DNA of 64,000 nucleotides, taken from the NCBI GenBank assembly GCA_036000965.1, contig DASYUT010000140.1, forward strand, positions 1-64,000, in the 5' to 3' direction. The notes under the pieces are model-generated. The model was given only the letters and a program-made list of their open reading frames with translations, ran no database searches and was not told the DNA's origin. The first letter of the stretch is position 1; each line of letters begins with the position of its first letter. The position numbers were made by a program, and so were the translations under genes. Origin of the DNA: Actinomycetes bacterium. GTDB lineage: Bacteria; Actinomycetota; CALGFH01. Shown here piece by piece: positions 9,214 to 34,095 of the stretch.

Positions 9214-9888
9214 TCACGGCACGGCCGCCTGAAGCTCGGTCACCAGGGCCTCACGCAGCTCGTCCAGGTCCACCCCGAACGCCTCGAGCAGGGGTCCGGC
9301 CGCGCCACGGTAGCCGTTGGGAAGGCCGACGGAGGCGTGCAGCTGCCGCACCCAGCGGTTCTTCATGCACCTCGGCCAGGACGTCTGGATGTCCTTCACC
9401 ACCCCAAGCAGCAGCAGCTCCGGGCCGACCTCAGCGTAGCCGAGCACCTCGGCCTGCTCGCTGGCGAAGTACTGCGCGCGCCAGGCGAAGCATGGTGGGT
9501 CGCGCAGCGGCGTCCGCGGCACCCGCCCAACCCCACCGCGTCGCCGGCGAACAGCCTCCCGTATCGCCCACCCCACGGCCTTGCGGCCGAAGGCCTGCTC
9601 GGTGGTGCGACGGATCGCCTCCAGGTCGATGCCGAGCGTGCCCAGCAGCTCGGCGTCGCTTGGCCGCGGGCCGGGCACCACCCCCCGTTCCGCCAGGCGG
9701 CCCAGCGCGGCTCTCGCGGCCTGCAGGTCCACGCCACGGGCCCGCAGGACCCGGGCGGCCCCGCCGCCGCCGTCGCGGAGCAGGCCCAGCAGGAGGTGCT
9801 CGGGACCCACATAGCAGTGGCCGACCAGGGCGGCCTCCTCCCGGGCCAGGTCCAGGACCCGGCCGACATGCTCGCTGCGCTGGACCAC
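9214..9888 (-). CDS. Clp N-terminal domain protein, copy 2
   Basis: Paralogue of the downstream gene (224 versus 225 residues, same two-repeat layout, shared RPSDAELLG.LGIDL and GYRGAAGPLLEA.GVDLDELR segments). The start is GTG 9888, set by a GGAGG ribosome site about 8 nt ahead; the frame remains open further upstream but that part overlaps the HTH gene. The second repeat keeps VGPELLLLGVV in place of the usual GPEHLLLGL, so one conserved His is lost there. It lies 5 nt after the HTH gene and 50 nt before copy 1, so the pair probably arose by tandem duplication. Confidence 0.85.
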   Translation of the reverse strand: MVQRSEHVGRVLDLAREEAALVGHCYVGPEHLLLGLLRDGGGGAARVLRARGVDLQAARAALGRLAERGVVPGPRPSDAELLGTLGIDLEAIRRTTEQAFGRKAVGWAIREAVRRRRGGVGRVPRTPLRDPPCFAWRAQYFASEQAEVLGYAEVGPELLLLGVVKDIQTSWPRCMKNRWVRQLHASVGLPNGYRGAAGPLLEAFGVDLDELREALVTELQAAVP

Positions 9889-24150: not shown

Positions 24151-25398
24151 GTGAGCGCCGTGAGGACTGGCATTGGCTACGGTGGACGCGGGCCGGAGGG
24201 GTGCCCCCGCTCGGAGGAGGCGCACCATCCTGTGGCCCCAGCGGTCTGGTCATGGCCGTGGGGGCCTGGCCGGCCCGCCCCGGCGCGAGCAGCGGTCGAC
24301 CCGGCCGCCGCGGAGGAGTTCCTGCGCCTGCATCACACCGAGTGCCCCGCGGCAGGGCCCGTGCAGCCACGACTGGACCAGGTCCACGCCCAGATCCAGG
24401 AGTCGGGCACCTACGTCCACACCCCCGCGGAGCTGACCTTCGGGGCACGGGTGGCATGGCGCAACGCAAGCCGCTGCATCGGCCGCCTGTACTGGCGCAG
24501 CCTGCGCGTGCGTGACCGGCGCCACGTCGCCGACCCCGACGACGTCGCCGCCGAGGCAGTCACCCACCTGCGCCAGGCCACCAACGGCGGGCGGATCCGC
24601 CCCACCGTCACCGTGTTCGCCGCCAGCACCCCGCAGCGGGACGGTCCGCGGATCTGGAACGAGCAGCTGATCCGCTACGCCGGCTACCGCCGTCCAGACG
24701 GCACGGTCGTCGGCGACCCCCGCTCGGCCAGCTTCACCGACACCGTGCGCGGGCTGGGCTGGGCGGGCGGGCCGGGCACCCGCTTCGACGTGCTGCCGCT
24801 GGTGGTGCAGGCTCCTGGGGAGCCTGCCAGGCTGTTCGACCTGCCCGCAGACGCGGTGCTCGAGGTCCCGCTCTGCCACCCCCGCTACGGGTGGTTCACC
24901 GACCTTGGGCTGCGCTGGCACGCCGTGCCGGTGATCTCCAACATGTGCCTGGAGATCGGGGGCATCTGCTACCCGGCCGCGCCGTTCAACGGCTGGTACA
25001 TGGGCACCGAGATCGGCGCCCGCAACCTGGCCGACACCAGCCGCTACGACCTGCTGCCGGTGGTCGCCGGGCAGCTGGGGCTCGACACCACCCATGAGCG
25101 CTCACTATGGCGCGACCGGGCGCTGGTCGAGCTCAACGTGGCCGTGCTGCACTCCTTCGAGCGGGCCGGGATCACCATCGCCGACCACCATACCGAGTCC
25201 CACCGCTTCCTGACCCACCTGGCCAGAGAGCAGCGCGCCGGGCGGATCACCCCCGCCGACTGGTCATGGATCGTGCCGCCCATCTCGGCCGCCGCCACCC
25301 CGGTGTTCCACCGCTACTACGACCAGGCCGACCTGCGCCCCAACTACGTCCACCACCCCCAAGCGCACACGCTCGCCGGCGGGGTGGCGCCGGCATGA
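24151..25398 (+). CDS. nos: bacterial nitric oxide synthase oxygenase
   Basis: 415 residues, oxygenase domain only. It makes NO and citrulline from arginine with heme and a pterin cofactor, taking electrons from a separate reductase. The heme-thiolate motif is WRNASRCIGRLYW (Cys at about 110); the substrate region has PLCHPRYGWFTDLGLRWHAV, NMCLEIGGICYPAAPFNGWY and MGTEIGARN, with the arginine-binding Glu in MGTEIG; the end has TIADHHTESHRF and IVPPISAAATPVFHRYY. It has an N-terminal run of about 50 Pro/Gly/Trp-rich residues (from GTG 24151) not usual for the family, so a later start is possible. No reductase or pterin gene is adjacent. Confidence 0.93.
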   Translation: MSAVRTGIGYGGRGPEGCPRSEEAHHPVAPAVWSWPWGPGRPAPARAAVDPAAAEEFLRLHHTECPAAGPVQPRLDQVHAQIQESGTYVHTPAELTFGARVAWRNASRCIGRLYWRSLRVRDRRHVADPDDVAAEAVTHLRQATNGGRIRPTVTVFAASTPQRDGPRIWNEQLIRYAGYRRPDGTVVGDPRSASFTDTVRGLGWAGGPGTRFDVLPLVVQAPGEPARLFDLPADAVLEVPLCHPRYGWFTDLGLRWHAVPVISNMCLEIGGICYPAAPFNGWYMGTEIGARNLADTSRYDLLPVVAGQLGLDTTHERSLWRDRALVELNVAVLHSFERAGITIADHHTESHRFLTHLAREQRAGRITPADWSWIVPPISAAATPVFHRYYDQADLRPNYVHHPQAHTLAGGVAPA

Positions 25399-26323: not shown

Positions 26324-26710
26324 TTACTGCTCGTGTACCTGGTCGGGCAGGAACACCGACAGCACGTCGCGCAGCGACAGCACCCCCAGCAGCCGGTCCT
26401 GCTCCTGGACGACGAGGTGGCGGATGCGGTTGGCGGTCATCACGCTCGCGGCCACGACCACGTCCCAGTTCGGACCGGCGGTGACGAGGCTCTTGGTCAT
26501 GAGCTCGGCGACCGGGGTCCGCTCGAGGTCGCGGCCCTCGGCCACCGCTCGCAGCACGTCGCGCTCGGTGAGGATGCCGGCCAAGCGGTCGCCCTCCTGG
26601 ACGACGACCGAGCCGATCACGTGGTCCTGCATCAGCCGGGCGGCCTGGCGCACCGACTGGCCAGGCCCCACGGAGACCACCGGCTGCTGCATCAGGTTGC
26701 GGACCTGCAT
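26324..26710 (-). CDS. CBS-domain pair protein
   Basis: 128 residues made of two CBS motifs (Bateman module): residues about 1-60 (NLMQQPVVSVGPGQSVRQAA ... GILTERDVLRAV) and 65-125 (ELMTKSLVTAGPNWDVVVAA ... GVLSLRDVLSVF). These bind adenosine nucleotides and act as energy sensors. I start at ATG 26710; the longer frame upstream overlaps the preceding gene. Its start lies two bases after the upstream stop, so the two form an operon under the promoter at 27094-27128. Confidence 0.85.
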   Translation of the reverse strand: MQVRNLMQQPVVSVGPGQSVRQAARLMQDHVIGSVVVQEGDRLAGILTERDVLRAVAEGRDLERTPVAELMTKSLVTAGPNWDVVVAASVMTANRIRHLVVQEQDRLLGVLSLRDVLSVFLPDQVHEQ

Positions 26711-27093: not shown

Positions 27094-27128
27094 TGCTAAC
27101 TATACTTAGCATGAGACTGCTATGTCAA
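27094..27128 (-). promoter_or_regulatory. near-consensus promoter with dyad operator (site A)
   Basis: On the minus strand: TTGACA (27128-27123), an 18-nt spacer, TATAGT (27104-27099). The dyad TGCTAA-GTATAG-TTAGCA (27111-27094, 6-bp arms, 6-bp centre) covers the -10 box. The first ten bases TTGACATAGC, the spacer and the dyad design are shared with the promoter at 32569, pointing to a common regulator. Confidence 0.75.
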
Positions 27129-27210
27129 GCCCTGGCCCTGCCAGGGAGCGGGCTGCGTGGCGACGGCCGCCTTGCGGCCATGAGGTCAGCCGCCCCGGCG
27201 GCCGTGGAGG

Positions 27211-28683
27211 TCACACCGTCCGCCGTTCCTCTGCCCCGTCCGGCGAGGCTCTCGGGTCCGGGTCCCGGGAGGCAGCCGGGTCCGGGTCCCGGGAGGCGGC
27301 CGGGTCCGGGTCCTGGGAGGCGGCCGGGCCAGGGACTGGCGGGGCGGCCGGGCCAGGCAGCGCCGCGGCGGCCGCACCGCCCGGCAGCGCCGGCGCGGGT
27401 TCGCTCGCCTTCACCGGGTCGAAGATCAGGCGGGCGTGCCTGTCATAGGTAAGGTAGCTCCACGCCCAGCTCAGCAGGACACTGACGCGGTTGCGGAAGC
27501 CCACGATGTAGACCAGGTGCAGCCCCAGCCACATCAACCAGGCGACCACGCCCTTGAAGCGCGGCCCGCTCGGCAGCTCGGTCACGGCCGCGTGCCGCCC
27601 GATCGTGGCCATGATCCCCCGGTCCCGGTAGACGAACCCGGCCCGCGGCGCGCCACCCCGCAACGAGGCGGTGATCTGCCTGGCGACGTGCTTGGCGGCC
27701 TGGATGGCGGGCTGGGCGACCTGCGGCAGCAGCCCGCCCTTGTCGTCGGTAGCTGCGGCCATGTCCCCCACGACGAAGACCTCGGGATGGCCTGGGATGG
27801 TCAGGTCCTTGTTGACGACGATGCGGCCGCCCCTGGTCTGCTCCACGCCGAGAGCGTCGGCGAGCGGGCAGACCCGCACCCCTGCCGCCCACACCAGTGT
27901 GCGGGTCGGGATCACCGTGCCGTCCTTGAGCTGGACCTCGGTCGGCGTGACGTGCTCCATCGCCTGCCCGAGCCGCACCTCCACGCCACGGGCGCGCAGC
28001 TTCTCCACGGCGTGCTGCCGCGACTGCGGATGGAACGGTGCCAGCAGGTGGTCGGTGGCCTCGAGCAGGACCACCCGCGTCCGCTTGGTGTCCAGGTCCG
28101 GGAAGTCGTGGGCGAGCACGTGGTGGAACAGCTCGATGACCGCCCCGGCCATCTCCACCCCGGTCGGGCCACCGCCGACCACCACCACGCTCAGCGCGCC
28201 CGCCTCCACCAGGCCCGGGTCGATCTCGGCCTGCTCGAACTGGCGCAGCAGATGGCTGCGCAGCCGTACCGCGTCGTCGAGGGTCTTGAGCGGGAAGCCG
28301 TACTCCTCCACCCCCTCGATGCCGAACGTGGCCACCGACGCGCCCGCTGCAAGGACCAAGAAGTCGTACCCGATGCGCTGGCCGTCCTCGGTCAGCACCT
28401 GTCTGGCATCCCGGTCGACCCCGCTCACCGTCGCCATCCGCACCGCGACCCGCCACGGCTTGCGGACGATCCCGCGGACCGGGTGGGCGATGTCGGCGGG
28501 CTCGACCACGCCGGTGGCGAGCTGGTACAGCAGCGGCTGGAACAGGTGGTAGTTGTGCCGCTCGACCAGCGTGACCCGCACCGGCGGCTTCGCCTTGGCC
28601 AGCGCCTTGGCCGCCGCCAGCCCGGCGAACCCGGCTCCCACGATCACCACGTGCGGCAGCTCCTCGGTCTTGCCAGCGCTCAT
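27211..28683 (-). CDS. ndh: type II NADH dehydrogenase
   Basis: 490 residues. A non-proton-pumping NADH:quinone oxidoreductase of the respiratory chain, bound to the inner face of the membrane. The FAD site is VVIVGAGFAGLAAAKALAKA (about 12-31), the NAD site VVVVGGGPTGVEMAGAVIEL, and VFVVGDMAAATDDKGGLLPQ the second FAD motif; a hydrophobic stretch near 385-425 (VVAWLMWLGLHLVYIVG) is the membrane anchor. The last 60 residues are a low-complexity tail containing three copies of an eight-residue DPDPAASR unit, coded by a 24-bp tandem repeat (27254-27325). Confidence 0.92.
   Translation of the reverse strand: MSAGKTEELPHVVIVGAGFAGLAAAKALAKAKPPVRVTLVERHNYHLFQPLLYQLATGVVEPADIAHPVRGIVRKPWRVAVRMATVSGVDRDARQVLTEDGQRIGYDFLVLAAGASVATFGIEGVEEYGFPLKTLDDAVRLRSHLLRQFEQAEIDPGLVEAGALSVVVVGGGPTGVEMAGAVIELFHHVLAHDFPDLDTKRTRVVLLEATDHLLAPFHPQSRQHAVEKLRARGVEVRLGQAMEHVTPTEVQLKDGTVIPTRTLVWAAGVRVCPLADALGVEQTRGGRIVVNKDLTIPGHPEVFVVGDMAAATDDKGGLLPQVAQPAIQAAKHVARQITASLRGGAPRAGFVYRDRGIMATIGRHAAVTELPSGPRFKGVVAWLMWLGLHLVYIVGFRNRVSVLLSWAWSYLTYDRHARLIFDPVKASEPAPALPGGAAAAALPGPAAPPVPGPAASQDPDPAASRDPDPAASRDPDPRASPDGAEERRTV
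27254..27325 (-). repeat. 24-bp in-frame repeat in ndh tail
   Basis: Three near-identical 24-bp units coding for DPDPAASR in the C-terminal tail of the NADH dehydrogenase. The units keep the frame, so they lengthen the disordered tail without harm. Confidence 0.7.
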
Positions 28684-28806
28684 CTGGGTCCTCCCTCACT
28701 GGCTTGTCGGAGGCGGAACAGCGCCGTCGCGCTGCCGGCGAGGACGCAGGCCAGTGCCGCCCCGTCCAGGCCGAGCGAGCCTGGCACGTCGGCGCCGAGC
28801 AGCGTT
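28680..28806 (-). pseudogene. membrane protein, C-terminal scrap
   Basis: The frame that ends in TGA overlapping the ndh ATG (ATGA) reads LLGADVPGSLGLDGAALACV then LAGSATALFRLRQASEGGPR, a hydrophobic span and basic tail with strong GC3. It looks like the end of a membrane protein formerly translated with ndh. Beyond about 28806 the likeness to coding is lost, so the rest is deleted. Confidence 0.35.
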
Positions 28807-28900
28807 CGAGACCACCAAGGTGGACTCGAACGGCTTGCTCGCCCGCGGGCTCAACGTCGCCCTCGCCGGTCGGTGCACACAGCTCCGCCTCCCAGTCGCG

Positions 28901-29040
28901 CTACTGCAGCCGGCCGCGGATGTGGGCGAGGAACTGCCCGGCCACCACCCCCGTCCAGCGCTCGGTGATCGTAGGAGAGACCCAGGATACCCATGTGGTG
29001 GATGGCGATGCTGTGGTGGATGGCGATGCCGTCTGGTGGC
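28901..29040 (-). pseudogene. 2-oxoacid dehydrogenase E2, C-terminal fragment
   Basis: The end of a dihydrolipoamide acyltransferase: MGILGLSYDHRALDG carries the catalytic DHR motif, followed, after one frameshift, by VVAGQFLAHIRGRLQ and a stop. The shift is one extra G in a five-G run near 28950; removing it joins the two parts perfectly. Before DHR the codons for IAIHH are doubled by an 18-bp tandem copy (28994-29029). Everything upstream, including the lipoyl domain, is missing. Confidence 0.55.
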
Positions 29041-29067
29041 TCCTCTCCAACCTTGCCGGGGTCGCCG

Positions 29068-30006
29068 CTAGGTCGACCGGCCGGCGAGCGCCCGGTCGCG
29101 GAGAAAGGAGGTGGCCACCTCGACGAAGCGCTCGGGGTCCTCCCAGAACAGCAGGTGGCCGGCACCGGGGAAGGTCACCAGCCGGGCGTCGGGAATGAGG
29201 CCGGTGAGCAGGCTGGCGTTGCGCGGGTCCACCACCTGGTCGGCTGTGCCGTGCACGATCAGCGTCGGGGCCTGGATGTGACGCTGCCGGCCGCGACCGG
29301 CCCAGCGGGCGCCGGCGGTCGCCTGGGCCATCCATCCGTCGCGGTCCGGGATCCGGGACCGCTGGTGGGCGATGATGTGCTCGACCAGCTCGGGCCGGCC
29401 ATCGACGGTGTCGGCGGCCAGGGCGTTCTCGACGTGGCGGCGGAGCGCGACCTCGCGGGGCAGCCGGCCGGCCTGCGCCAGCAGGCGGATCGTGGGCACG
29501 GGCGGTGGGTAGCCGGACGGCCAGCCGGGCGTGGTGCAGGCCAGGACGAGCCGATCGACCCGGTCGGGATGCCCGATGGCCAGCTCCTGGGCGATCATCC
29601 CACCGAGGCTGGCCCCGACGACGTGGGCGCGCCCGATCCCGGCCGCGTCCAGCACGGCCACGACGTCGCCGGCCATGGCCGCCACCGTGTAGGGCCCGGG
29701 TGGCACGCCGCTGGCACCGATGCCCCGGTTGTCGAGCAGCACGAGCCGGAAGTGCCGGCCGAGCCGCCGCGCGACCGGATCCCAGCCCGAGCGGTCGAAG
29801 CCGAGCCCTTGGACGAGCACGACCCAGGGCCGCCTGGAGAGGGGCCGAGCACGCAGCTCGTACGCCACCGGGACGCCGTCGCTTGCCGCGAAGCGCGCCC
29901 TCCCCGACGGGATCCCTTTCCTCAGCCCGCGGCGAACGGCCTGGCCGGCGACCGCCGGAAAGGAACGTGCTCCCGCATTGCCAAGGCTCCTCGACCTCAT
30001 GTTCAT
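29068..30006 (-). CDS. alpha/beta hydrolase
   Basis: 312 residues from ATG 30006; a start 26 codons earlier is possible. The fold is clear: oxyanion region WVVLVQGLGFDRSGWDP, then LLDNRGIGAS, nucleophile elbow VVGASLGGMIAQ, Asp in PTLIVHGTADQVVDPRNA and the final His in FPGAGHLLFWEDPERFVE. It belongs with the 3-oxoadipate enol-lactonase/haloperoxidase-like group. The N-terminus (about 45 residues) is basic and unstructured. It is followed on the same strand by the E2 fragment, and preceded 106 nt upstream by the methyltransferase. Confidence 0.85.
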   Translation of the reverse strand: MNMRSRSLGNAGARSFPAVAGQAVRRGLRKGIPSGRARFAASDGVPVAYELRARPLSRRPWVVLVQGLGFDRSGWDPVARRLGRHFRLVLLDNRGIGASGVPPGPYTVAAMAGDVVAVLDAAGIGRAHVVGASLGGMIAQELAIGHPDRVDRLVLACTTPGWPSGYPPPVPTIRLLAQAGRLPREVALRRHVENALAADTVDGRPELVEHIIAHQRSRIPDRDGWMAQATAGARWAGRGRQRHIQAPTLIVHGTADQVVDPRNASLLTGLIPDARLVTFPGAGHLLFWEDPERFVEVATSFLRDRALAGRST

Positions 30007-30111
30007 CCACGTATTGTCACAGGGAACTCCGAGGAGGGGCCCTGCCGGCATCGACGCCCCGCATCGTGACGACCTGCCTGTCAACCCGCGTCCTCGCCTT
30101 GCTGTGAACAG

Positions 30112-30744
30112 CTACGGAGCGGGTGGCTGGCGCAGTCCCCAGACGACGTAGACGCAGCCCAGGACGGCTTCCTCCACCGTGAGGGCCGGCACGAAGCGCT
30201 CGAGCTCCGTCCAGGGCCGCCAGAACCCCTCGAAGGTCGTCACGAACCGGCGGGCCACCTGCCACACGAGCGGGTTCAGCGGCGGCGCGAGCAGCGTCCA
30301 TTTGGGGCCCGCCGCAGCCACACGCCCGCCGGACCGTACCTGCCCAAGCACGTTGGCGAGCCCCTCTGGAGAGCGCAGCACGTCATGGGTGAAGGCGAAC
30401 AGCGCCGCGTCGGCCTGCACCGGGATCACGGCCTCCTCGGCGCTCGCCTCGAGCAGGGTCGCGTTCGCCCAGCCCGCCGCGCGGACTCGCGCCAGGGCGT
30501 GCGCCAGCATCTCCGGGCTCTGCTCGATGCCCACCAGCCGCCCCTGCGGGCCGATGGCCGCCTCGATCGGGGTGAAGCTCATCCCGGTGCCGCAGCCCAC
30601 GTCGAGCACGACATCGCCGGGCTGGAGGCCCAGCTTCGAGATCGCCCGGTGCCGGTAGGGCTCGAGCCAGCCGGTTGCAAGGTCGTAGGTGCCGGCCAGC
30701 TGCCGGTAGAGGTCCAGGGCTGCTCGTGGGTCGCGGCGCCTCAT
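30112..30744 (-). CDS. class I SAM-dependent methyltransferase
   Basis: 210 residues. The SAM motif I is VVLDVGCGTGMSFTPIEAAI (about 44-63), with the acidic residue after strand two in GIEQSP and the motif II region AALFAFTHDVLRSPEG. It is a small-molecule methyltransferase of the Methyltransf_25/ubiE-like type; the substrate is unknown. It is followed by the hydrolase on the same strand, so the two may be co-transcribed. Confidence 0.82.
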   Translation of the reverse strand: MRRRDPRAALDLYRQLAGTYDLATGWLEPYRHRAISKLGLQPGDVVLDVGCGTGMSFTPIEAAIGPQGRLVGIEQSPEMLAHALARVRAAGWANATLLEASAEEAVIPVQADAALFAFTHDVLRSPEGLANVLGQVRSGGRVAAAGPKWTLLAPPLNPLVWQVARRFVTTFEGFWRPWTELERFVPALTVEEAVLGCVYVVWGLRQPPAP

Positions 30745-30890
30745 CCTTCTCGCACTCCCCGGTCAAGCCCCCACAGTATCCGCCCGCTCGGCCGGCTGCT
30801 GCATTGGGCCTCGCTCGGGACCCGCCTGGCATGGGACTCTATATTCCTTACCGGCTCGCAAACGGGAGGTAACGGAGGCGTGAACAGACG

Positions 30891-32093
30891 TTGCGGGGAG
30901 CGTGGGGGGCGGTGGAGCCGGAACTGGAGGTGACCGACCCACCCGGCTCATGTCTGCCCCTTGCCGACGGCTCGAGGGTGGACGGGGCCCGCGGACTCGC
31001 GTCCTGGTCCGCGGGGACACCGCGGGCCGCGGGGACCCTGCGGGCGGTCGGGACACCGGGGTCGGTCGGGACACCGCGGGCGGCGGGGAAGACTCGGCTG
31101 GCCCGGCATCGTCTGGCCATCGGCGGGCAGCAGGTGACGATTGCCGTCGGCGGACGAGGCATCCCGCTCGTGCTCGCCAGCGGGCTGCTGCCAACCGACC
31201 GGCTCTACGTGCAGACGCTCAGCCGGCTGGCGTCGACAGGCTTCCGGGTGGTGGCGGCGGACGTCGCCGGAAGCGGGGCAGCCAGCGACGGTCGAGGGCT
31301 CGACGACTACGGCCGCCTGCTCGGCCGCCTGCTCGACGAGCTCGGCATCTGCCGGGCGATCCTGGCCGGCCACTCCCTGGGCGGCCGGCTCGTGACCGAG
31401 CTGGCCGCCGGACGGCCAGAGCTTGCCATCGCGCTGCTGCTCGTCGACGCGGGCGTCGGCGCACCATGGGACGAGCTCGTCCGTCTGATGGCGGTCGCGC
31501 CGGCATCCATCGGGGTCCTCGGGGGGATGCTCCTGGCCGACACCCTGGGCACGGTCCCGCTTGCCCGTGACGTCGAGCAGGCGCTCAAGCTCAGCCGGCT
31601 GGCCGCGCCCGTCGCGCTCGGCCACCTGAGCGCTCCGTGGCGGCTTCTCGGCCCTGGGTTGTCCGCCCTCTACGCCCCGGCGAGCGTCCCGCTGCTCAAC
31701 CGGATCCGGCAGGCCGAGGTGCCGGTCATGGCCGTCCATGGTGACTGCGACCTCGTGGTGCCGCTCGCGACCGCTCGCGACGCGGCCCGCCGCACAGCCG
31801 GGGAGCTGGTCGTCGTCCATGGAGGGACCCACTCGTGGCCACTCCAGGACCCCGAGACCCTCCCCGCGATCGTGCACGAGGCGCTCACCGGGCGCTTGGG
31901 CAGGGCCTGCACCCGAGCCATCCTCGACGCCGGCCTCGATCCGGTCAGGGCATCCGGCCGCGAGGTGGAGGCCGCCTTCCTGGCCGAGGGGGCACTGGTG
32001 CGGCGGCTTGCCCCGCCGGACCCGCCCATGCCCGTGGCCGTACGACGGGCGCGGTCACCCCACTACCGCTGGTCCCGAACCGACGTGACATGA
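30891..32093 (+). CDS. alpha/beta hydrolase with repeat-rich N-terminus
   Basis: Up to 400 residues from TTG 30891; GTG 30912 is another candidate and the N-terminal 70 residues are doubtful. They contain degenerate repeats of GTPRAAG (SAGTPRAAGTLRAVGTPGSV). The hydrolase core follows: PLVLASGLLPTDRLYVQT, nucleophile elbow LAGHSLGGRLVTELA, Asp in VMAVHGDCDLVVPL and His in VVHGGTHSWPLQDPE. The stop codon lies inside a 13-bp tandem repeat (32082-32120), so the natural end may have been altered. A GTG mini-frame with GGGAGG ahead of it (30880) overlaps the start region. Confidence 0.75.
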   Translation: MRGAWGAVEPELEVTDPPGSCLPLADGSRVDGARGLASWSAGTPRAAGTLRAVGTPGSVGTPRAAGKTRLARHRLAIGGQQVTIAVGGRGIPLVLASGLLPTDRLYVQTLSRLASTGFRVVAADVAGSGAASDGRGLDDYGRLLGRLLDELGICRAILAGHSLGGRLVTELAAGRPELAIALLLVDAGVGAPWDELVRLMAVAPASIGVLGGMLLADTLGTVPLARDVEQALKLSRLAAPVALGHLSAPWRLLGPGLSALYAPASVPLLNRIRQAEVPVMAVHGDCDLVVPLATARDAARRTAGELVVVHGGTHSWPLQDPETLPAIVHEALTGRLGRACTRAILDAGLDPVRASGREVEAAFLAEGALVRRLAPPDPPMPVAVRRARSPHYRWSRTDVT

Positions 32094-32120
32094 CGACGTG
32101 ACATGACGACGTGACATGAC
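32082..32120 (+). repeat. 13-bp tandem repeat over a stop codon
   Basis: GACGTGACATGAC three times without a mismatch (32082-32094, 32095-32107, 32108-32120). The first copy holds the stop codon of the hydrolase. Confidence 0.85.
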
Positions 32121-32155
32121 CTTGAGCGCCCGCGCCCCGGCACGCACCGCAGCGG

Positions 32156-32398
32156 TCAGGCGGGACGCGACCGGCCGACGATCTCGGCATAGTGGGTGCC
32201 ACAAAGGCCGAGGTCGCTGATCTCGGGCCGGTCGCACGACTGACGGCACGCGCACGCCGTCGGGTGCGGGTGTGCCCAGCAGCCGTCCCCATCCATCCGG
32301 GGAGCGTCGACGGCACGCGCCGCTGCCAGGTCCATGACGCCGCCCATGACGCCCCTCCGGTGCCTGGCGGTGTGGCGGTCCTGGGTCGCGCTGCTCAT
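32156..32398 (-). CDS. 80-residue Cys/His-rich small protein
   Basis: ATG 32398 overlaps the stop of the upstream mini-gene (ATGA). The first part is basic; the second holds CWAHPHPTACACRQSCDRPE and GLCGTHYAEI, with five Cys and three His in 36 residues, a likely metal site. Codons are strongly GC3, as in real genes here. An internal ATG at 32347 with GGAGGGG ahead gives a 63-residue form. I know no family. It is expressed, if at all, from the minus-strand promoter at 32623-32594. Confidence 0.5.
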   Translation of the reverse strand: MSSATQDRHTARHRRGVMGGVMDLAAARAVDAPRMDGDGCWAHPHPTACACRQSCDRPEISDLGLCGTHYAEIVGRSRPA

Positions 32399-32526
32399 CG
32401 GCTCGGGCGTGGCATCCCCAGCAGCTCCCACAGGTCCCGCACGGTGGGCCGGTCGCCCTGGCAGCTGCGCCGGTCGGCCTCGTCCCGAGAGCCTCGGCGT
32501 GTCTTGCCGATCCGAACTCGTCGCAT
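32395..32526 (-). CDS. 43-residue basic small protein
   Basis: ATG 32526 with GAGGTGAGG just ahead. The product is rich in Arg at the start (MRRVRIGKTRRGSRDE) and ends GDRPTVRDLWELLGMPRPSR, which could be one amphipathic helix. GC3 is high and the stop is coupled to the next start. I do not recognise it. It lies 70 nt from the divergent promoter pair. Confidence 0.5.
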   Translation of the reverse strand: MRRVRIGKTRRGSRDEADRRSCQGDRPTVRDLWELLGMPRPSR

Positions 32527-32568
32527 TCGCCTCACCTCGCTGCTTGCGCCGTTTGGGCGGAGAAATTC

Positions 32569-32623
32569 TTGACATAGCTAGCTCGTGCGTAGCATAGTAC
32601 GCAGTAGCTCGCTCAGGCGTCAA
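32569..32623. promoter_or_regulatory. overlapping divergent promoters on one dyad (site B)
   Basis: Plus strand: TTGACA (32569-32574), 18-nt spacer, CATAGT (32593-32598). Minus strand: TTGACG (32623-32618), 18-nt spacer, TACTAT (32599-32594). The two -10 boxes lie on each other at the centre of the dyad TGCGTA-GCATAG-TACGCA (32586-32603). The plus promoter begins TTGACATAGC, as at 27128, with the same spacing and dyad design. One bound regulator could block or switch both directions. Confidence 0.75.
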
Positions 32624-32826: not shown

Positions 32827-34095
32827 ATGGCTGAACGAACCCGATTCCCGATCCATGTGCGGCGAGGAGGACCAGCTGCCCTCTGGGGTCGCTCCAGGAT
32901 GGGAGCGACCGCCACGGCGTGGTTCTCCCGGCATGTGGCCGCGCTGCGCTCCCGGCGGCTGGGCCGCCCCTCCTGGGCTGCCTACCGTGGGCGCGGCGCG
33001 CCCCCGGGCTGGCGGACGGCCAAGACCACCCTGGCCGCGGTGCTGGCCTACGAGCTTGCCCGGCAGCTCCTGGGCGACCAGGTCCTGCCGCTGCTCGCGC
33101 CGCTGACCGCCCTGCTGGTGGCCCAGATCACGATCGTCGAGACGGTCAGGAGCGGGCTGGAGCGCGTCGGCAGCGTCGTCGCCGGCGTACTGGTGGCCGT
33201 GCTGCTGTCGAACGTGGTGGGCCTGACCTGGTGGGGGCTTGCCATCGTGATCTTCGCCTCGCTGGTCGTCGGCCAGCTCCTGCGGCTCGGCGAGCAGGCA
33301 CTCGAGGTGCCCATCAGCGCGATGCTCGTGCTGGCCGTGACCGGCGCCACCCAGGCCGCCGCCCAGAGCAGGGTCGCGGAAACGCTGATCGGCGCGCTGA
33401 CCGGCGTCGCCGTGAACGTCCTGCTCGGGCCGCCGGTCTACGTGCAGCCGGCCGGCGACGCGATCGGCGAGGTCGCCGACGACATGGCCGGGCTGCTCGC
33501 AGCGATGGGCGAGGAACTGACCGACGGGTGGTCGAGCGAGCTGGCCCATGGCTGGGTGCGCCGCACCCACGAGCTGGACGCGCCGCTCCGCTCGGCCGGG
33601 ATCGCCCTGGCCCGGGCTGAGGACAGCCTGCGGCTGAACCCGCGCAGGCGGCGGGTCGCGGAGGGCACCTCGAGCCTGCGCGCCGGCCTGGCCGCCCTCG
33701 AGCACGCCGCGATCCAGGTTCGGGGGGTCTGCCGGGACCTGGCCGACCTGGCCGAAAGCATCGAAGCGCGGGGGCAGGCCGAGCCCGAGGTGCTGGTCGC
33801 GCTGGGGCGGCTGCTGGTGGAGCTAGGCGGCGGCGTGGCCGCCTTCGGCCAGCTCGTCGCCCCCGACGTGGCTGGCCCGGCGCGGGAGGCGGTGCCGTTG
33901 CGGATCGCGCTGGAGATCGCCCAGACCCACCGCGACGTCCTCGCCGAGCTGATGCTGGTCGACGCCCGCACCGACCCCGAGCTCTGGCACATCCAGGGCA
34001 GCCTGCTCGCCAACGTCGACCGGCTGCTCCGCGAGATCGACCTGGAACGCGGCCCGGACGCCCGGCGCATCCGGCGCGCCGACCCGCCTCCCTGA
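32827..34095 (+). CDS. FUSC/aromatic acid exporter-like membrane protein
   Basis: 422 residues from ATG 32827; ATG 32899 is an alternative, neither with a strong ribosome site. The membrane part (about 60-200) has four to six spans, with TLAAVLAYELARQLLGDQVL, LTALLVAQITIVETVRSGLE and VAVLLSNVVGLTWWGLAIV, the pattern of FUSC_2/ArAE_1 proteins. The second half is a long soluble helical domain (DDMAGLLAAMGEELTDGWSS ... ESIEARGQAEPEVLVALGRL). Such proteins export aromatic acids or other toxic organics. It is the plus-strand target of the divergent promoter pair 250 nt upstream. Confidence 0.78.
   Translation: MAERTRFPIHVRRGGPAALWGRSRMGATATAWFSRHVAALRSRRLGRPSWAAYRGRGAPPGWRTAKTTLAAVLAYELARQLLGDQVLPLLAPLTALLVAQITIVETVRSGLERVGSVVAGVLVAVLLSNVVGLTWWGLAIVIFASLVVGQLLRLGEQALEVPISAMLVLAVTGATQAAAQSRVAETLIGALTGVAVNVLLGPPVYVQPAGDAIGEVADDMAGLLAAMGEELTDGWSSELAHGWVRRTHELDAPLRSAGIALARAEDSLRLNPRRRRVAEGTSSLRAGLAALEHAAIQVRGVCRDLADLAESIEARGQAEPEVLVALGRLLVELGGGVAAFGQLVAPDVAGPAREAVPLRIALEIAQTHRDVLAELMLVDARTDPELWHIQGSLLANVDRLLREIDLERGPDARRIRRADPPP

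Follow-up and report, generated by a model that had tools for sequence, protein, structure and literature searches.

Two promoters in the 64,000-nucleotide stretch of DNA analysed here (the window), sites A and B in Table 1, are predicted to be operators of an XRE-type repressor, encoded outside the window on contig C177 of the same genome, that governs PHA granule genes. We assign this reading a probability of about 0.78. The repressor appears to control PHA-granule coat proteins in many actinobacteria, and it is perhaps a general regulator of actinobacterial PHA phasins. The proposed actinobacterial PHA circuit has a defined operator, a named candidate regulator and targets; a review of PHA regulation mentions neither an XRE regulator nor an actinobacterial circuit.

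Table 1. Sites A and B, the genes around them and the candidate regulator gene.
Feature	Position	Strand	Remarks
Site A, promoter and operator, TTGACATAGCAGTCTCATGCTAAGTATAGTTAGCA	27128-27094	minus	-35 TTGACA 27128-27123; -10 TATAGT 27104-27099
Site A operator dyad, TGCTAAGTATAGTTAGCA	27111-27094	minus	
Phasin-like gene, 110 aa	26713-27045	minus	ORF; site A as promoter; homologs adjoin phaC and XRE gene
CBS-domain gene	26324-26710	minus	directly behind phasin-like gene; PF00571, 1.7e-28; start 26710 read from sequence
Site B, plus direction, TTGACATAGCTAGCTCGTGCGTAGCATAGTACGCA	32569-32603	plus	-35 TTGACA 32569-32574; -10 CATAGT 32593-32598
Site B operator dyad, TGCGTAGCATAGTACGCA	32586-32603	plus	
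Site B extra half-site, GCTAGC	32577-32582		
Site B, minus direction	32594-32623	minus	TTGACG 32623-32618, 18-nt spacer, TACTAT 32599-32594; on site B dyad
FUSC/ArAE-type exporter gene	32827-34095	plus	PF06081, PF13515; leader of ~220 nt; possible target of B
Mini-gene, 43 aa	32395-32526	minus	read from sequence; possible target of B minus promoter
Mini-gene, 80 aa, Cys-rich C-terminus	32156-32398	minus	start overlaps stop of 43-aa gene (ATGA)
XRE-type gene, 122 aa	G000:C177:12720-13088		outside window, same genome

The two sites follow a common plan, as the original prediction had claimed: in each, an 18-nt spacer separates TTGACA from a -10 box that is framed by a perfect 6+6 dyad, TGCnnA-N6-TnnGCA. 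Their coordinates proved exact, and no other position in the window matched TTGACA combined with the -10 box. The window holds three dyads of this form, namely those of A and B and a third one without a promoter. When the 6.47 Mb genome was searched with the full combined pattern (TTGACATAGC-N7-TGCnnAGyATAGTnnGCA, up to three mismatches), A and B were the only two matches, and the reversed pattern, used as a control at the same threshold, had none. The absence of further sites had been named in advance as grounds for giving up the idea of a regulon. This absence is true for the strict pattern only, as related sites exist at phasin, phaC and XRE promoters. The dyad arms read TGCTAA/TTAGCA in A and TGCGTA/TACGCA in B; two middle positions differ (TA vs. 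GT), and both differences are mirrored in the opposite arm. This pattern is expected of a bound palindrome and suggests that the palindrome, and not just the promoter, is under selection. As the dyad lies on the -10 box and not inside the spacer, a MerR-type arrangement was rejected. Site A has just the half-site pair on the -10 box; site B carries the array GCTAGC-TCGT-GCGTAG-CATA-GTACGC. Two promoters were found in the site B region, against a mean of 0.0 in shuffled sequences, and the one in the minus direction is the weaker match to the model (12.4 bits). The original prediction did not mention this minus-strand promoter, although the end coordinate given there, 32623, fits it.

A sequence-only model trained on 19 sites, none of them from the window's genome, ranked A first in that genome (28.8 bits, E 6.6e-6) and B second (19.0 bits, E 0.009). 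As the training set included the orthologs of site A from two relatives, A was ranked less independently than B. The third rank was taken by the phaC promoter (C177:12594-12559, E 0.23), and no phaC promoter had been used in training. The model scored preselected candidates (150/562 for the window's genome), so weak sites may be missed. It was also run on 18 other whole genomes, mostly sources of the training sites, where the best matches were phasin promoters; G362 (L140) was newly found to have a second phasin gene. A further match (L141, ~1501; G189:C15:8026-8054) has a patatin-like phospholipase gene on one side and a tryptophan-synthase-like gene on the other, and is a possible additional member of the regulon. 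The model ranks bear on the simplest explanation of the likeness, that A and B are ordinary strong housekeeping promoters which resemble each other by chance. Their -35 and -10 boxes are indeed near consensus, and part of the similarity is therefore promoter consensus, but the mirrored arm changes, the conserved orthologs of site A and the recurrence of the dyad across families (see below) all argue against coincidence. We regard it as extremely improbable, as the ranks given by the held-out model contradict it.

The product of the phasin-like gene behind site A has no Pfam match, and Phasin_2 was matched by one of its 12 homologs (E 8e-4). The CBS-domain gene probably shares a transcript with it; no CBS partner was found beside the orthologous phasins of the relatives in the flanking sequence examined. 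A search with the phasin-like protein returned paralogs and orthologs in the window's genome and in two further genomes of its family (G001 and G002). The paralogs adjoin phaC, and the promoters of the genes found have this dyad over the -10 box (e.g., TTGACAAACCATGGGTATGCAAACTATAGTTTGCG in G002). Before the same phasin, the promoter and dyad of site A are kept in both relatives (G001:C85 and G002:C233), as CGCTAACTATACTTAGCA on the opposite strand in G001, which reads TGCTAAGTATAGTTAGCG or its equivalent, and as TGCCAACGCTAGTTAGCG in G002. The concern that the dyads might not be kept in relatives is thus settled for site A. Phasin-like genes of G002 also show a variant dyad, TGC-nn-ACTAAACTA-nn-GCA (L032 3087-3104, L033 2-19 and L031 4715-4732), and the proteins concerned carry C-terminal repeats, ERSVEELRERARELQIEGRSTMSKDELIAALR. 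The sites in L031 and L033 have the same sequence and lie at contig ends; they are probably one locus that was split in assembly. Elsewhere in the window, a gene at 24151-25398 on the plus strand encodes a bacterial nitric oxide synthase oxygenase domain (PF02898, E 1.4e-154).

The XRE-type gene on C177 gives good support to the original prediction of a small regulon whose regulator is encoded elsewhere: it has the same promoter plan and lies between the divergent phaC and a second phasin-like gene that comes after it, both with related sites. The encoded protein matches PF01381 HTH_3 (E 2.1e-15), only HTH families match it, and its nearest solved structure is ClgR; neither the regulator nor the phasin-like protein has an NCBIfam name. 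PhaR was rejected as the regulator because the C177 protein is an XRE protein, from which the PHB_acc_N and PHB_acc domains are absent. The gene is the ortholog, at 82% identity, of the XRE gene in the relatives G001 and G002, where a phasin gene by phaC is divergent from the small XRE-type gene with the dyad between them. Its own promoter, TTGACG-TTGCCGCTCTC-CGCTAACTATCCTGAGCA, keeps the spacing and has a dyad three mismatches off the consensus. The sites at this promoter and at the second phasin are both degenerate in the window's genome. A regulator gene carrying the same site had been proposed as a check, and what was found is the same promoter plan with a weaker dyad. Between phasin and phaC in L036 and L034, a separate promoter of the same plan immediately precedes the start codon of phaC (e.g., TTGACGTAGTACGCGGCTGCTCGGCATAGTGATCGCAGGATG), which makes phaC a possible member of the regulon as well. 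Several tandem units of ~20 bp, GTGATCGTGACATGACGACG, lie in the phaC leader, between promoter and start (L039 ~9440-9560; G000:C177:12440-12560).

Homologs of the XRE protein at E <=1e-20 occur in 118 of 397 genomes sampled from the phylum. Among the nearest loci from other families, 16 have a phasin-like gene adjoining the XRE gene. The TTGAC promoters of these phasin-like genes carry the dyad, or no less than its right half, on the -10 box; a perfect dyad is found in L071 (TGCTTGGTATACCAAGCA). The XRE genes are often near the PHA synthase gene phaC as well as a phasin-like gene, and six of them have TGCTTGG-N4-CCAAGCA, or a sequence near it, in their own promoter. The half-sites often run on upstream in 10-bp steps and with alternating direction, as in CCAAGC-ATCC-GCTTGG-TATA-CCTAGC (L078) and likewise in the array of site B. 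Thirty-two XRE loci at greater distance were then scanned with a symmetric matrix, and dyads were called strong at >=13 bits if at most 1 in 100 shuffles was as good. In 9 of these loci, strong dyads lay no more than 150 bp upstream of the XRE match, and one more preceded a phasin-like gene (L079), showing that the same half-sites precede distant XRE homologs absent from training. About half of the distant loci had no strong dyad; with so many lacking it, the site cannot be called universal. The arrays of apparently mycobacterial or streptomycete loci hold both half-site pairings, as illustrated by GCAAGC-AGGT-GCTTGC-AATA-GTTAGC in L121 and by GCTAAC-TAGT-GCTTGC-AAAA-GTTAGC before the XRE gene and HbhA-like gene of L117. 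In L117 and L120, which both look mycobacterial, the XRE homolog lies before an hbhA-like gene with the same half-sites upstream, a pair that we take to be Rv0474/hbhA.

We infer from the sequences that the C177 XRE protein binds A and B, and palindromes of this size fit many regulator families. The dyad could therefore be bound by another regulator (e.g., of the TetR type), with the XRE gene a mere neighbour. Such an arrangement is improbable, as the promoters of the XRE genes themselves have the dyad, the same gene pair is found in several families and the half-site is that of MLDSR, an XRE protein discussed below.

Site B forms, as read from its sequence, a back-to-back promoter pair around one dyad, which could serve the FUSC exporter gene, the mini-gene pair that starts ~65 nt to its left, or both. 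The product of the 43-aa mini-gene has no family match. For the 80-aa mini-protein, G001 has a relative (43%, E 1.1e-8) and the window's genome a paralog, and both lack the site. Both relatives have FUSC orthologs (75-76% identity) that come directly after a different gene and lack the site; FUSC as a conserved target of B is thus unsupported, and the dyad of B, in contrast to that of A, is not kept in relatives. The B region has no DNA counterpart there either. The neighbours of B are not conserved with a site in relatives; B is a good site by sequence, with a putative target that is specific to this lineage. The original prediction had also described the genes behind A and B as unrelated, a label that needs correcting because the regulon concerns storage granules.

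These observations are consistent with another history, in which the granule regulon includes A as a true operator and B is a relic phasin-type promoter, left by a rearrangement, that regulates no gene of physiological meaning. The FUSC orthologs and mini-protein relatives without a site, the region without a counterpart and the long leader of FUSC would all fit this. However, B has three half-sites and two good promoters, and its dyad is perfect, with the changes mirrored. A relic would not retain these features, and no phasin remnant was found by eye downstream of B. We therefore hold the relic to be rather unlikely.

If A and B are both operators of the XRE repressor, an XRE dimer would bind the two half-sites and block RNA polymerase at the -10 box. 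By analogy with MLDSR and PhaR, the regulator would be drawn onto granules as these form, which would switch on the phasin genes, including the one behind site A. Through site B, the regulator would also control a second divergent unit specific to this lineage (FUSC exporter, mini-genes or both). A bolder and less likely version, which we put forward tentatively, holds that a granule-sensing XRE repressor, conserved among actinobacteria and with one alternating half-site code for PHA and lipid bodies, captured an exporter and a Cys-rich mini-operon in this lineage via one shared bidirectional promoter. If true, export or stress functions would be coupled to storage-granule formation.

The proposed model works like PhaR of proteobacteria, a repressor of phasin and of its own gene that moves from the promoter to the granule once granules form (PMC3570403, PMC3079617). 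PhaR and the candidate XRE HTH regulator belong to unrelated protein families. Rv0474 of Mycobacterium tuberculosis resembles the regulator proposed here in being small and autorepressed; it is reported to be copper-responsive and to act on an RNA polymerase gene, and differs in that no phasin or phaC neighbour has been reported (PMC10884836). In Rhodococcus jostii RHA1, the XRE protein MLDSR is encoded with the lipid-droplet coat protein MLDS, binds GNTWGCTNNTGCTANC and regulates its own operon in both directions; lipid droplets sequester it (PMC5504291). Both systems thus have a small XRE regulator gene by the gene of a storage-body coat protein, and the MLDSR half-site, GNTWGC/GCWANC, is the half-site found here. 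MLDSR acts on the promoter and operator of its operon, as is predicted for the regulator here; the dyad here sits on the -10 box, unlike the published MLDSR site. The pairing also differs, as it is the outer GCwwr-N4-ywwGC here and the inner GNTWGC-N4-GCWANC in the published site. The inner pairing (CCAAGC-N4-GCTTGG) is present in many phasin promoters and partly in B, and is absent in A; neither A nor B fits the strict 16-mer, although the half-sites are the same. MLDSR serves a triacylglycerol droplet with one operon known, whereas here PHA genes are concerned (phaC and several phasin-like genes). One half-site code would thus join the PHA case, the Rhodococcus lipid-droplet system and likely mycobacterial homologs, and control here would be a variant of the MLDSR kind, with one putative extra target at site B.
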